Shown here: piece after piece, positions 4,774 to 25,388 of the stretch
How positions within the stretch are numbered: the stretch's first letter is position 1
Layout: every line of letters starts with the position of its first letter
The notes under the pieces: generated by a model
What the model saw: the letters and a program-made list of their open reading frames with translations, nothing else
What the model was told of the DNA's origin: nothing
Databases searched by the model: none
Made by a program: the position numbers and the translations under genes
Source: a virus
DNA length: 27,079 nucleotides
Strand: one strand, 5' to 3'
Virus record (IMG/VR): IMGVR_UViG_3300007533_000012
Span: 1 to 27,079 of that record

Positions 4774-5030
4774 TGTTTACCTTCATCCAGCACCAGCGTT
4801 GCAAACTCTCAGACTGGTTACAGAGTCGATGGGATGCCGGCCGCCGCGAAATGGATGTGACCGTACTGTGGCCATACATCTGCCAACAAACAGACGATAT
4901 AGACGAGGCCAAGGCGGCGTTCGCCTTCCACATCATGCACGACCCCGCATGGACGCGTGAATTCTCGGAAATGGAGCTGATCTATTTCGTTGACCGCCTG
5001 GAAGCTCCAAAGAGGTCAGTCACATGGTAA
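4773..5030 (+). CDS. Hypothetical protein
   Basis: 85 residues, rich in Trp and aromatic residues (KLSDWLQSRWDAGRREMDVTVLWPYI, MHDPAWTREFSEMELIYFVDRLEAP). The start is TGATG-coupled to the upstream gene and the end overlaps the metalloprotein gene by 7 nt. It is probably a small soluble helical protein. No family is recognised. Confidence 0.55.
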   Translation: MFTFIQHQRCKLSDWLQSRWDAGRREMDVTVLWPYICQQTDDIDEAKAAFAFHIMHDPAWTREFSEMELIYFVDRLEAPKRSVTW

Positions 5031-5590
5031 AAATGGAGCTGCTAAACAACGGGCTGAATCTTATGGGCGAGTTCTGCCACGCCAATAAGCTGGATGCGCC
5101 CGGAGTCCATGTGCGCCAGCGCAGCGACTGGAGGATAGCGAGTGCATGTGCCTATTACCGGCCGGTGGCCATCGCTATCTGCCCTGCTCGCTGCTCTGCA
5201 ATCGGCACTGCTCACCGTGCATGGTCCTACCCCGGCTACGTGATCGACAAGACACCCTATGGAGTGATTCAGCACGAGCTAGGCCACCACGTTGACCATA
5301 CCCTTTCAGAGCGCAAAGGGAGCTATGGCGGCGACTTCAGCATAAAGCTCCGCCAGCTGTCTGGTGAGCCGAAACTGACGAACTACTGCCCCAACGACTG
5401 GGAGTGGTTTGCCGAGATGTTCCGGCTTTTCGTCACCAACTCTGATCTTCTGAAGGCCCTGCGACCACGGCTTTTCGAGCAGCTGCGCGAGCGGTTCAAA
5501 CCCGTGGTTGATAGGCCGTGGCGAGAGGTGTTGAAGGACGCGCCGGAACGGACCATAGCGATGGCCCAGAAGAAGGTGGAGGCTGCATGA
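5024..5590 (+). CDS. HExxH zinc metallopeptidase-like protein
   Basis: 188 residues. The zinc-binding motif HELGHH is at residues 84-89, followed ~40 residues on by NDWEWFAEMFRLFVTN (E127/E131), the usual place of a third ligand in gluzincin-type enzymes. Five cysteines lie in the first 60 residues except one at 122, and no signal peptide or membrane segment is seen, so it is probably cytoplasmic. Phage proteins of this shape are widespread but poorly studied; they may cleave a host or phage protein. It sits directly upstream of xis/int with a 4-nt overlap. Confidence 0.65.
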   Translation: MVKMELLNNGLNLMGEFCHANKLDAPGVHVRQRSDWRIASACAYYRPVAIAICPARCSAIGTAHRAWSYPGYVIDKTPYGVIQHELGHHVDHTLSERKGSYGGDFSIKLRQLSGEPKLTNYCPNDWEWFAEMFRLFVTNSDLLKALRPRLFEQLRERFKPVVDRPWREVLKDAPERTIAMAQKKVEAA

Positions 5591-7082: not shown

Positions 7083-7295
7083 ATGAAAATACTGAAATCT
7101 TTTAAGCGCAACGAAAGTGGCGCCACCGCTATCGAGTACGGTTTGATTGCCGCCCTAATTGCCGTCGCAGCTATTGCAGCGTTTTCGGCCGTTGGTGACT
7201 CGCTGGATTCTACCTTTACTCAGGTGAGCGACTGCCTCAACGACGCTGGAAGCGGCACTAACTGTAACGCAACTACCGGCGGATCGGGCGGTTAA
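7083..7295 (+). CDS. Flp/Fap type IVb prepilin
   Basis: 70 residues. The Flp prepilin signature is complete: a short basic leader (MKILKSFKRNESG) is cut after Gly13, giving a mature start ATAIEYGLIAALIAVAAIAAFSAV with Glu at +5 and Tyr at +6, then the hydrophobic helix. The C-terminal part has Cys51 and Cys61, likely a disulfide loop, and a Gly/Ser/Thr tail. Flp pilins are polymerised by Tad machinery in the inner membrane; no Tad assembly gene is near, so it would depend on host genes. GGAGTCGA (7072-7079) is the ribosome binding site and matches other genes of this phage. It has its own terminator at 7335-7370 and lies between attP and the late operon, a typical site for a lysogenic-conversion gene. 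Confidence 0.88.
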   Translation: MKILKSFKRNESGATAIEYGLIAALIAVAAIAAFSAVGDSLDSTFTQVSDCLNDAGSGTNCNATTGGSGG

Positions 7296-12485: not shown

Positions 12486-12626
12486 CTAAACCGAGTAATC
12501 CGTGCGTCTAATATCCATCTGATACTCATGTCCGGCAGCCACAGTGGGGAACACACAGGGATGGTTGATGACGTCATTGATCCACACACTAATTAGCTGA
12601 CCTGATGCAAAACCATGATGTGGCAT
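12486..12626 (-). CDS. Possible small protein between adhesin and lysin
   Basis: 46 residues (ATG 12626; GTG near 12584 is another option). The second half (ISVWINDVINHPCVFPTVAA, GHEYQMDIRRTDYSV) looks like a folded beta-type module, not random sequence. It overlaps the end of the adhesin gene by 38 bases in another frame, and no good ribosome binding site is seen. It may instead be a former C-terminal extension cut off by a frameshift, or not real. Confidence 0.3.
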   Translation of the reverse strand: MPHHGFASGQLISVWINDVINHPCVFPTVAAGHEYQMDIRRTDYSV

Positions 12627-13398
12627 AGTCAAAAATGATGTCCAGCGCACCACCTGAAGTTTGGGTAACATACAGTTCAAAATAATCGCCGTATGAGACA
12701 GCAATCCTACCGGAACTCAGATTGACAAACGTAAAAGCCCCTTGCGTCGCTTGAAATCTTTCCTGCGGCATACCAACGAAATTAGCCCCATTCTTCGATA
12801 TGAAGGCCTGCCTATACCCAGTATTATTTGTGTCGAAAGTTACATTCGCAGTTAGCTCCACAAAATCAACGTCATACGGAACTGTTAAGCGTCCCGTATT
12901 AACGCTGGTCGAGTGAAACCCCCCTTCGTCATAAACTTCAGTATCAAAACCAAGAACGGAATCGGTGGCATTATTTACCGATGGATTTGACGAATTCGTC
13001 ACCAAAGCCCCTATAACGGAACTTTGAGAGGCGCTGTCCGGCACACTCCACCTGTTCTCAGGAGACCAAGATAAAGTCTTCCCTGCTCCTAAAACGCGCC
13101 GATGGATAGGTCGTTGGGTGCCGTCATCAAAGATGATAGAAACTTCATGAGGAATATCGTCTGCATTAAATACATTTAAGTATTTCAACTGACGCAAAGT
13201 GTCATCGCTCGGAGCGTTCACAATAGTAATATTCATCGTATCGTTGAAGTCGCCCACATTTGGCGCGCCATCTGAGAGTTTCACATTCGGTGAAGTCGCC
13301 AAATCAACGTAATCCACAGCAAAAACCGGCTGTGTTATATTAGCGGCCTCTCCTAGAACTGCTTTGAGGCTTTGCGAGGTTGTTCTCAGAAACATCAT
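12589..13398 (-). CDS. Receptor-binding/adhesin protein with a C1q-like C-terminal domain
   Basis: 269 residues. The N-terminal part (to ~residue 115) is a beta-rich attachment region (TMNITIVNAPSDDTLRQLKY). The C-terminal ~110 residues resemble the C1q/TNF-like trimeric jelly roll. They run from FHSTSVNTGRLTVPYDVDFV through ANVTFDTNNTGYRQAFISKN to SGRIAVSYGDYFELYVTQTS and end FDYATSWFCIRSAN. Such domains tip phage fibres and bind surface sugars. The gene is clearly more AT-rich than its neighbours, as is common for host-range modules swapped between phages. It overlaps the stop of the upstream gene (ATGATG). Confidence 0.65.
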   Translation of the reverse strand: MMFLRTTSQSLKAVLGEAANITQPVFAVDYVDLATSPNVKLSDGAPNVGDFNDTMNITIVNAPSDDTLRQLKYLNVFNADDIPHEVSIIFDDGTQRPIHRRVLGAGKTLSWSPENRWSVPDSASQSSVIGALVTNSSNPSVNNATDSVLGFDTEVYDEGGFHSTSVNTGRLTVPYDVDFVELTANVTFDTNNTGYRQAFISKNGANFVGMPQERFQATQGAFTFVNLSSGRIAVSYGDYFELYVTQTSGGALDIIFDYATSWFCIRSAN

Positions 13399-13674: not shown

Positions 13675-14454
13675 TTACTCCGGCATTTCCAGGCCGTCGA
13701 TACGATTCACGGCGCCGTCGTCTTCGATGGAGAACAGCCGGCCGGGGGCCTGCATGACGCCCAGGGACCGCCAAGCGATTTCGGCCGTGTCTTCGCCGTC
13801 AACCACTTCAACAGAGCCAGCGCTCCACCAAGACTTGCCTTTGTCATCGCTGATATTCAGCGTGACAGACGCACCAGTGTAAGCGGGCTCTCCCATGTTC
13901 GCAGCCAGATACACGCCGTCGCATGGTACACTGTCACGCATGCGGACGGGGAGGGCACCCGTCACCACGCGGTCAAAGTAAGACACTCCATTATCCAGCG
14001 CATTGTCATCGTAGGCTTGCTGCGGCCTGAGCTGCCAGAGAATGCCCTGATCGTCGTCACCGGCCACCACGTCGCAGACTGCACCAGCGGCGTAGGTGGG
14101 GGCCGCCATGCCAACCCAGGGAATGCCCTGGTGAGCGCGCCAGTAAGGTAACCCCTCACCCTTCCAGACATACCAAGTGCGGGACAGTCGATCATAGACA
14201 AGGGTTTCAGTCTCACCCAGCCGAATAGCCCACATGTCGTGCCCATCCAGCGTAAACCCCCACGCCCGCAAATGCCGGTTCTCGGTGCGGCCCTTGACCA
14301 GCACCAATGTTCTCAGCTGCGTGACCTTGATCCCAACATTCTTGACAGACGCAATCTGCACCCGAACCTGCGTCGCCTTCAGAAACTCCGTAGGAAAGTT
14401 ATAGATGGCCAGGGCACGGGTTTGAGTGTCCTTGATGTTGGGGGTCGCGACCAT
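13675..14454 (-). CDS. Tail hub protein resembling the C-terminal half of P22 gp10
   Basis: 259 residues. After ~60 residues of unrecognised sequence comes a pattern seen in the last third of gp10-type packaged-DNA stabilisation proteins. It runs DGHDMWAIRLGETETLVYDR, then RTWYVW, VSYFDRVVTGALPVR, TLNISDDKGKSWW and AWRSLGVMQAPGRLFSIED. The gp10-like gene at 15559-16809 ends just where this pattern would continue. I infer a gp10 hub made from two chains, with a lectin-like gene between the halves. It starts 2 nt after the upstream stop. Confidence 0.55.
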   Translation of the reverse strand: MVATPNIKDTQTRALAIYNFPTEFLKATQVRVQIASVKNVGIKVTQLRTLVLVKGRTENRHLRAWGFTLDGHDMWAIRLGETETLVYDRLSRTWYVWKGEGLPYWRAHQGIPWVGMAAPTYAAGAVCDVVAGDDDQGILWQLRPQQAYDDNALDNGVSYFDRVVTGALPVRMRDSVPCDGVYLAANMGEPAYTGASVTLNISDDKGKSWWSAGSVEVVDGEDTAEIAWRSLGVMQAPGRLFSIEDDGAVNRIDGLEMPE

Positions 14455-14456
14455 TA

Positions 14457-15548
14457 CTACAGCGTCCGGTCAAGCGTGATTGTCGCCGCGTCAACCGCGC
14501 CAGGCAGCCATGCGACACCTGTGTCGGGGTCAGTCTCGAAGAAGTCGTAATAGTAGGTGTACGACGACGCTATGGCCCGATCAGTGCCGTTGTTCTCTGT
14601 ACCGGCCGACTTCATGCCAACCTGCATCTGCCCGTCGCCGCCATCCGTCTTGCTGGCGCGTAGCAAGGTCATCAAACCCTTCACGCTGGAGACATTGGCA
14701 GGGAGGTTGGACAGACCAAACTCGGACTGTGCCGGCGGCGGATCGGGTGCCTCAATATAGTCCGTGTCATCGTTGGGCGGAGTTTCGTCGATAAGAGCAT
14801 ACCCGTCCGTTCCGGTGCTCAGCGTCCAGCCGGCCGTCGCCACATCGGAATCCGGGGTCAGCGCCGTGACCGACACAGAGCCCAGGAAGTCGTTGTTCTC
14901 TGTGCCGGCGCCGTTCCACGTCACGAAATCCTTGACATAGTACGTCTCTGCGGCGCTGGTGCTCGTGGGGTCAAGGGCTACCTGAATGATGCCGATATTA
15001 GTGGCAGAGAGAGCCAGCCCCGTAAGATTGATAACGGGAATGCCTTCGATACGAACTTCGAGAGTGCCGGCCGCGGCGTCCATGTGTAGCTTTGCTTCGA
15101 TATGAATCCACGATCCCGCAACAATCTTGTTCGGGTCAGACGTTCCCAGGGTCGTACCATAGAAACTGCCCGAGTTCACCGACACCGAGCCATCCGTGTT
15201 GATGCGCAAGGCCGCCAGAATGTTGTTGCTGCTGTCACACCAGACAATGGGGTAAGGCCCATATCCGTTGCTGCTGGGAAGTGTGGGCAGGTATACGCGG
15301 ATCGCAACCCCGACTGTCAGATGCGGGTTGTCAAGGTTCTTGCGTATAAGCGAATATGCGCCACCTCCCCCATAGGGGTTGGCGTCGAATCTGAACACCT
15401 TGTTACTGTAGAGCGGGTCCGGGTCCGTCACCAAAGCCACATCAGAGCCCGTGCCGCCGGTCGTGTGACCAGCCTGCGCATAAAGCCCCTGCACCATATA
15501 GGCCACGTTTGAGCCGTAGCTGTTGAAGTCGTCGCACCACTGGAGCAT
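14457..15548 (-). CDS. Structural protein with a concanavalin/LamG-like jelly roll
   Basis: 363 residues. The N-terminal ~210 residues (DDFNSYGSNVAYMVQGLYAQ, IRVYLPTLPSSNGYGPYPIV, GSWIHIEAKLHMDAAAGTLE, INLTGLALSATNIGIIQVAL, YYVKDFVTWNG) match the LamG/concanavalin-like fold of many phage virion proteins. It probably binds carbohydrate on the host surface. The C-terminal part has a second beta domain (PANVSSVKGLMTLLRASKTD, QMQVGMKSAGTEN) with a conserved type of virion wording. It lies between the two gp10-like genes and may decorate the tail hub. Confidence 0.6.
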   Translation of the reverse strand: MLQWCDDFNSYGSNVAYMVQGLYAQAGHTTGGTGSDVALVTDPDPLYSNKVFRFDANPYGGGGAYSLIRKNLDNPHLTVGVAIRVYLPTLPSSNGYGPYPIVWCDSSNNILAALRINTDGSVSVNSGSFYGTTLGTSDPNKIVAGSWIHIEAKLHMDAAAGTLEVRIEGIPVINLTGLALSATNIGIIQVALDPTSTSAAETYYVKDFVTWNGAGTENNDFLGSVSVTALTPDSDVATAGWTLSTGTDGYALIDETPPNDDTDYIEAPDPPPAQSEFGLSNLPANVSSVKGLMTLLRASKTDGGDGQMQVGMKSAGTENNGTDRAIASSYTYYYDFFETDPDTGVAWLPGAVDAATITLDRTL

Positions 15549-15558
15549 GGTAGTTCTC

Positions 15559-16809
15559 CTAAACCGAGGTTTTCTGTGTCGCGATAGCGCGACGGATACG
15601 TTCGATGACGCCGGGCGGGGCGATTGGTTCCGGGCTCGCCGTCACTTCAACCGGAATTCCATCCTTGTCGATGAGAAACACCGCGTCCCGAATCTGCACG
15701 TCGGTACCGGGCCACACGCCTCGGTCAAAAAGCTGCCCTTTCATACGAGCGAAAGGTGATGTTCCATCGCCAGTGAGGTACCAGACTTCTGAGGTTTCGA
15801 CGCCGAACAGCCAGAAGACATCACCCACGACGCGCACACTCCAGAGGCCATCAGGGCTGCGCTCAGCGGTGTAATAACTGAGCGGGTCAATTGTGGTTTC
15901 TCCGGGTTTGATATAGTAAAACCGGCCGTTCACGTCATATCCCTGCGCAACCACGACGATGACATAACCAGCAATGTAGCCGACACTCACAACGCCCACA
16001 TCGTCAGGGGTAGCCACAGTTGTAAACGACGGATCACCGCCACCGGAGAGTGTCGCTGCTCCCCACGTCAGATTGGCGCCGGTCACCACAGTTGTTGATA
16101 ATGAGTTGCCCGCCGTTCCAGCGGTGCGTGCTGATACACTGAGGCCCACACCGGTCGCGCTGTCACCTTTCACGTCCGCATTGGCGGTGAGGCTGGTACT
16201 GTAGGTAGTGCCGGCCACTCCCGACGCATTGAGCGCTTTGTACAGGTTGGTAAGCGATTCCAGAGTGTCGCTTCCCAGGCTCACAAGCCATGGAGTGCCG
16301 GAAGTGCCGTCTGGGGTGCCAGCGTCAACGCTACCACTGGTCCACTGGTAGTAAACCCCGGCGATTTCCACCTCGTCAGCGTCGGCAATGGCACCGGAAG
16401 TTGACAAACTGCCGGTGGCGAAACCGTCTTCCATATAGAGGTAAAGGCTGCGGCCATCGGCCATGAACAGCTTGTCCGGCGTAGCAGCCATGTAGACGGT
16501 GCCGCGAATCCCGGCGCCAAAGATACCGGACCCTATCAACGTGGCGCTCTCGTCCGTATCTATGCGGTATGCCTCTGTGCCGCTTACCAGAAAAAGAGCA
16601 TCCGAAAACGCGCCAGGTTGCGAAAAGAGGCCGCGAATAGGGCCATCGCCGACAGTTTTCCACTTGCTGAGGCCGGGACGGGCAATGAGCGCGGCCTGCT
16701 CCACCTGGTTGGTGGGGTCCTGCTCAAAAAAGCGGTTCACCACTTTGATGTCGGGCTCGGAAGCTACCAGCCGGCGGCTTTCGGAGTAGCCCAGAGGAAT
16801 CCCAGTCAT
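15559..16809 (-). CDS. P22 gp10-like packaged DNA stabilisation / tail hub protein (N-terminal half)
   Basis: 416 residues. The start (SRRLVASEPDIKVVNRFFEQ, LIARPGLSKWKTVGDGPIRG) and the beta-propeller repeats (YRIDTDESATLIGS, GTVYMAATPDKLFMADGRSL, FYYIKPGETTIDPLSYYTAE) fit the gp10 family. So do VFWLFGVETSEVWYLTGDG and FDRGVWPGTDVQIRDAVFLI. The protein ends at VIERIRRAIATQKTSV, where full-length gp10 would go on for ~150 residues. A Ser/Thr/Gly-rich insert (about residues 140-250, TSLTANADVKGDSATGVGLS, LTWGAATLSGGG) resembles a decoration domain. It overlaps the gp4-like gene by 4 nt. Confidence 0.7.
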   Translation of the reverse strand: MTGIPLGYSESRRLVASEPDIKVVNRFFEQDPTNQVEQAALIARPGLSKWKTVGDGPIRGLFSQPGAFSDALFLVSGTEAYRIDTDESATLIGSGIFGAGIRGTVYMAATPDKLFMADGRSLYLYMEDGFATGSLSTSGAIADADEVEIAGVYYQWTSGSVDAGTPDGTSGTPWLVSLGSDTLESLTNLYKALNASGVAGTTYSTSLTANADVKGDSATGVGLSVSARTAGTAGNSLSTTVVTGANLTWGAATLSGGGDPSFTTVATPDDVGVVSVGYIAGYVIVVVAQGYDVNGRFYYIKPGETTIDPLSYYTAERSPDGLWSVRVVGDVFWLFGVETSEVWYLTGDGTSPFARMKGQLFDRGVWPGTDVQIRDAVFLIDKDGIPVEVTASPEPIAPPGVIERIRRAIATQKTSV

Positions 16810-25312: not shown

Positions 25313-25388
25313 TGGTGGAGCCAGCAGGAATCGAACCTGCGGCCTCCGGTATGCAAAGCCGGCGCTCTTCCAACTGAGCTATGGCCCC
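25313..25388 (-). tRNA. tRNA-Ala (UGC)
   Basis: 76 bases including an encoded CCA. Acceptor GGGGCCA/TGGCTCC with the G3-U70 pair that defines alanine tRNAs, D stem GCTC/GAGC, T stem GCAGG/CCTGC with loop TTCGATT, and anticodon TGC. The anticodon stem has one C-A mismatch next to the loop (positions 31/39). It lies 143 bases ahead of the first late gene, in the same direction, so it is probably cut from the late leader. Confidence 0.9.

Follow-up and report, generated by a model that had tools for sequence, protein, structure and literature searches.

We analysed the whole 27,079-nt sequence of the IMG/VR record IMGVR_UViG_3300007533_000012 (hereafter the window), which comes from an uncultured virus and carries a P22-like head-tail module on its minus strand. 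The genes are ordered as a terminase-position gene, the portal, a scaffold-position gene, the coat, a gp4-position gene and three consecutive, nearly touching genes that we call N416, LEC and C259. Pfam profiles matched the portal (PF16510, E-value 2e-137) and the coat (PF11651, E-value 6e-26), both upstream of N416; small structural genes, a CHAP-domain protein and ejection-type proteins follow 3' of C259. N416 (15559-16809, minus strand), whose start is overlapped by the gp4-position gene, and C259 (13675-14454, minus strand) encode the N- and C-terminal halves of a gp10-like hub, at the genomic place expected for phrog_578, the head closure Hc3 family of P22 gp10. The 363-residue LEC (14457-15548, minus strand) is lectin-like. 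Its ribosome-binding site, AGGAG (15556-15560, minus strand; sequence TAGGAGAACTACCATG), overlaps the N416 stop codon and lies 7 bases before the LEC start, and the C259 start is found 2 bases past the LEC stop; N416 and C259 are in the same reading frame, 1.1 kb apart. A sequence-only reading had proposed a P22 gp10 hub split into two genes with another gene between them, and these three minus-strand ORFs bear it out. Elsewhere, the window holds a tRNA-Ala (tgc; 25313-25388, minus strand), a small protein with a HELGHH zinc-peptidase-like motif and a sub-threshold Pfam match (5024-5590, plus strand), and a Flp/Fap pilin gene (7083-7295, plus strand; PF04964, E-value 1.4e-17) with the integrase on one side and the ejection-gene end of the phage module on the other; this pilin gene is either host DNA or phage cargo.

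Each half was searched separately against PHROGs. N416 matched phrog_578 with an E-value of 3.5e-28 (best stretch at profile positions 134-248), and residues 58-243 of C259 matched positions 285-452 of the same profile with an E-value of 2.5e-7; neither half matched PF11134 (Phage_stabilise). In searches with alignment profiles, the N-half profile matched residues 2-259 of the 446-residue Pan3 hub (PDB 9vyg, E-value 3.7e-56) and the C-half profile residues 263-438 (E-value 3.1e-26), adjoining stretches with almost no overlap, so that the halves are complementary. Profiles from relatives also matched the Pam1 needle head protein, and the N profile P22 gp10 (E-value 7e-7). The separate searches that had been suggested for each half therefore both lead to phrog_578 and Pan3, at different stretches. 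N416 holds nothing equivalent to Pan3 263-438, in agreement with the claim that the 416-residue protein stops before the C-terminal part of the family. That C259 carries this missing part is upheld by phrog_578 and by Pan3 263-438, with the correction that homology starts earlier than the first motif cited for it, at LRAWGFTLDGH (residue ~63). Ahead of it, C259 has a repeat region of ~62 residues that is missing from single-chain gp10. About 130 residues of N416 (~128-265; approximately 16015-16428, minus strand) form an inserted domain, so that its gp10 part is only ~280 residues long. The domain is lacking in the N halves of four relatives (L082, L084, L089 and L095) and in fused hubs; it is a mobile tail domain. 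Without any Pfam match, it also recurs in long lectins and in other phage proteins. Members of phrog_578 are single polypeptides of ~440-480 residues; since the window hub is encoded by two genes 1.1 kb apart, it is a split variant and not a standard member of the family.

AlphaFold models were obtained for both chains alone (pLDDT 85.5 for N416 and 72.6 for C259, whose residues 1-56 were unstructured when modelled alone) and compared with the PDB using Foldseek. The top folds were those of Pan3, Pam1 and P22 gp10 for N416, and of the Pan3, Pam1, P22 and Sf6 hub proteins for C259, with CBM-like folds among the lower-ranked hits of C259. An unrelated fold for C259 was thus not found, and N416 is no complete gp10, the equivalent of Pan3 263-438 being missing. 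The prediction of single chains gave hub proteins as the best folds, with only a rough superposition of the monomers (query-normalised TM of 0.51 for N416 and 0.40 for C259). From the DSSP strand lists, and not from coordinates, we read about five propeller blades, the first platform strands and a terminal helix in N416 (residues 399-415, VIERIRRAIATQKTS; 15565-15615, minus strand), just after which the chain breaks. C259 continues with the last two blades by strand order (residues 63-155; 13990-14268, minus strand) and a platform-like jelly roll (residues 157-257; 13684-13986, minus strand), modelled at a pLDDT of ~90 (ten-residue means of ~86-95) and returning hub proteins in Foldseek. The blades of the two chains add up to seven, as in the T7 and SU10 nozzles. 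Residues 1-50 of N416 have mostly low confidence in the chain modelled alone and yet include several conserved columns, as expected if they complete the platform in the other chain.

LEC residues 1-356 matched phrog_2448, annotated as function unknown, over positions 1-328 of the 335 of its profile (E-value 4.4e-29), that is, over the full length; LEC had no match in Pfam, and its best PDB profile match was weak (E-value 1e-3), so the jelly-roll and lectin labels of the sequence-only reading remain putative. Longer homologues are lectins enlarged by an additional LamG domain (Laminin_G_3, PF13385). LEC would bind cell-surface glycans. A structural protein encoded downstream (12589-13398, minus strand) matched phrog_13989 with an E-value of 2.7e-13. 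It may bind a receptor in its own right, so that LEC is not necessarily the sole adhesin.

Relatives were gathered with coat protein, N416 and alignment queries, yielding about ninety loci, several of which are overlapping pieces of one contig, and the IMG/VR loci were grouped by similarity of the N half. The hub halves were separate genes in 40 clusters and gp10 was fused in six, with L040 also fused; since split forms served as queries, these counts favour them. In 37 of the 40 clusters the halves flank a phrog_2448 lectin-like gene, and the other three (L018, L070 and L095) have no such gene and a C half fused to another N-terminal domain of ~400 residues. In one locus (L081), 2.4 kb separates the lectin from the C half. 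In another (L030, 4793-6938), the hub halves enclose a tandem pair of phrog_2448 lectin genes. Split N chains terminate just past a conserved helix of the GIEERIR type, a few residues away at most, and RAWxFxxDGH opens the C core, while fused proteins have a linker of 4-15 residues between the two profile matches, so the break falls in the same inter-blade linker throughout. In the N-core tree, a single split clade was not rejected (p-AU 0.10). The fused gp10 of L005 (4679-6910), truncated at the contig end and therefore at least 744 residues long, lies inside the split clade on a long branch and has extra inserts; a single irreversible split is therefore not certain, and this position may reflect re-fusion or misplacement in the tree. 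In this tree, the window and L018 branch together (support 96/86); L018 has a fused domain instead of the lectin, so that the insert changes and the hub halves stay. Of the "unusual neck design" suggested from the window, the split thus stands and the implied one-off does not: a large uncultured clade has this as its regular arrangement.

The shared frame of N416 and C259 could suggest one continuous hub polypeptide, made by frameshifting, bypassing or splicing across the lectin gene. We consider this highly improbable, as 1.1 kb and the stop codons of N416 and of the lectin intervene, the lectin gene possesses a separate start and an AGGAG site across the N416 stop, C259 begins with a conserved start of its own, of the MALTP/MVATP type, and an Rfam search of the window returned no intron or other RNA element but a tRNA. 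Frameshift and intron readings were accordingly rejected on the stop codons, the separate starts and the lack of an Rfam intron in the window. A decaying prophage gene or an assembly artefact might come to mind for a 27-kb record of an uncultured virus, and it has next to no probability in our judgement: dozens of independent contigs carry these three genes intact, and dN/dS in close pairs of relatives lies at 0.02-0.14. On this intact gene trio and low dN/dS we rejected both decay and artefact. The view that the locus is no simple frameshift is likewise confirmed by dozens of relatives with three intact genes and by dN/dS far below 1.

By gene, dN/dS was 0.03-0.10 for the N half, 0.05-0.14 for the lectin and 0.02-0.03 for the C half, values that come from pairs of relatives, none of which is close enough to the window itself to be paired with it. 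Judged by these ratios, all three ORFs are under strong purifying selection and hence functional. We then compared pairwise distances among 15 distinct phages: those of the N and C halves were correlated with a Spearman coefficient of 0.80 (Mantel p 0.0002), against 0.30 for N and lectin (p 0.08) and 0.37 for C and lectin (p 0.03), in a test limited to 15 taxa in which the lectins may be nearer saturation. By this measure of parallel divergence, the hub halves travel as a unit, and the lectin appears to be exchanged more freely than they are.

The co-inheritance of the halves bears on a reading in which C259 has left the propeller to become an adhesin anchor elsewhere on the tail and N416 alone closes a smaller hub. 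Five-bladed propellers do exist, and the large N-terminal domains fused to the C half in L018, L070 and L095 would suit an anchor. We nevertheless give this reading little credence, because the N and C halves co-occur and diverge in parallel, no other gene seen in the window supplies the missing blades and platform, and the N-terminus of N416 has no platform partner inside N416.

The N-terminal extension of C259 (residues 1-62; 14269-14454, minus strand) is a stalk of degenerate SQ/TQ repeats. In C halves of lectin-bearing phages, the first ~60-105 residues consist of such repeats of ~20 residues around [ST]Q, for which fused gp10 has no room, its linker being only 4-15 residues long. A model of the repeat unit, searched against ~6,000 ORFs, matched 44 C-half ORFs and only two others: an ORF of a Mesorhizobium phage (L002, 9050-9361; E-value 0.0024), immediately following a phrog_2448-type gene, and, weakly (E-value 0.77), one beside a phrog_2448-type gene, on the opposite strand, in an uncultured giant phage (L110). 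In Tetraselmis viridis virus S20 (L001, 7989-10799), a phrog_2448 gene is followed by an ORF combining a LamG domain, four SQ repeats, which were counted by eye and not detected by the repeat-unit model, and a baseplate hub protein (PF09931, E-value 1.5e-37; PF09356, E-value 1.4e-20). Like the window, S20 has an SQ-repeat hub protein immediately preceded by a phrog_2448 gene; it differs in its siphovirus-type tail module and its whole hub of the phiJL001 gp84 type. Although these three loci were fetched for their lectin gene, the pairs in L001 and L002 are independent support for a module of lectin, SQ repeats and hub. From the repeats and their neighbourhood, the stalk of C259 is probably the site where the lectin docks.

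The same evidence can be set against a reading in which the halves form the hub and the lectin gene, a cargo or tail-fibre gene, is a mere neighbour with no physical link to it. Such a neighbour would account for lectins that diverge partly independently of the hub halves, for the presence of phrog_2448-type genes in other phage tail modules, among them that of the siphovirus S20, and for the three clusters that lack a lectin. We find it unlikely, as 37 of 40 clusters keep the lectin between the halves, the three others have a domain fused to the C half, so that something is normally mounted there, and SQ repeats stand beside phrog_2448 genes in unrelated phages.

The explanation we favour, and regard as probable, is a functional two-chain tail hub with an exchangeable cell-surface-binding cassette, in which the lectin is docked on the C-half stalk. 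N416 would give about five blades and the first platform strands and C259 the remaining two blades together with the platform jelly roll, and the chains would assemble non-covalently into a gp10-like hexamer below a gp4-like adaptor. The split at one inter-blade linker would free the N-terminus of the C half, and the SQ repeats would extend it into a stalk docking the lectin-like product of the gene immediately upstream; in some relatives, a different domain fused at that N-terminus would take the place of the lectin, and the hub would thereby bear its exchangeable cassette. We infer the assembly of two chains, its stoichiometry, lectin docking and glycan binding, and likewise the role of the lectin as a third hub part that had been suggested. 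As a more tentative extension, to which we would give somewhat less than even chances, the SQ stalk may be a general multivalent dock for phrog_2448 lectins, with one lectin per repeat; splitting the chain there would have created a cassette slot in which cell-binding modules are swapped, as separate lectins or fused domains, with the DNA channel undisturbed.

P22 gp10, the Pam1 needle head protein and the Pan3 stabilization protein (phrog_578; PF11134) are homologous to both halves, in the same order along the chain and at the same position after the coat and gp4-like genes. They are one chain, whereas the window has two with a gene between and adds the repeat stalk to the C half and the ~130-residue domain to the N half. 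In T7 gp12 and the SU10 nozzle, a seven-bladed propeller stands with a platform, three strands of which come from the N-terminus of the protein in T7, and extra domains at the propeller openings dock fibres or form the nozzle (PMC6702177, PMC9509320). Those insertions lie within one polypeptide, whereas in the window the chain is interrupted and a gene of its own encodes the extra part. Binding of a host receptor by tail tubular proteins of a Vibrio podophage is reported in the accessible part of PMC7241545, making a binding role at the level of the hub plausible.

Split hubs were also sought beyond these loci. Scans for close relatives found none with C259 alone in viral and genome contigs and none with the lectin alone in viral contigs. 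Aligned together, the C halves proved too diverse to scan genomes with, and a narrower alignment found only an Achromobacter prophage with a fused gp10; among 398 Pseudomonadota genomes, six had hits, and their open frames, at 454-819 residues, exceed the length of a lone C half. A tblastn search of the C halves against 50,697 phage records returned only gp10/stabilization-type proteins, most of them so annotated, and those inspected were single-chain (Pam1, Pan3, VvAW1, P26218, DSL-LC05 and two metagenome-assembled phages). Full-text literature searches found no description of a split hub, and none is mentioned in the searched passages of a study of tubeB/gp10 evolution (PMC10386132).

The hub (gp10, tubeB, nozzle) has been described as belonging to the best-conserved proteins of short-tailed phages, with a part in gating the genome (PMC6702177). 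A stable two-chain hub would show that this part tolerates cutting, and where. In this clade, half of the hub may escape annotation, and phrog_2448 and the SQ repeats, of unknown function, would gain a testable role. The arrangement points to change in surface binding at the hub itself, beyond spikes and fibres.
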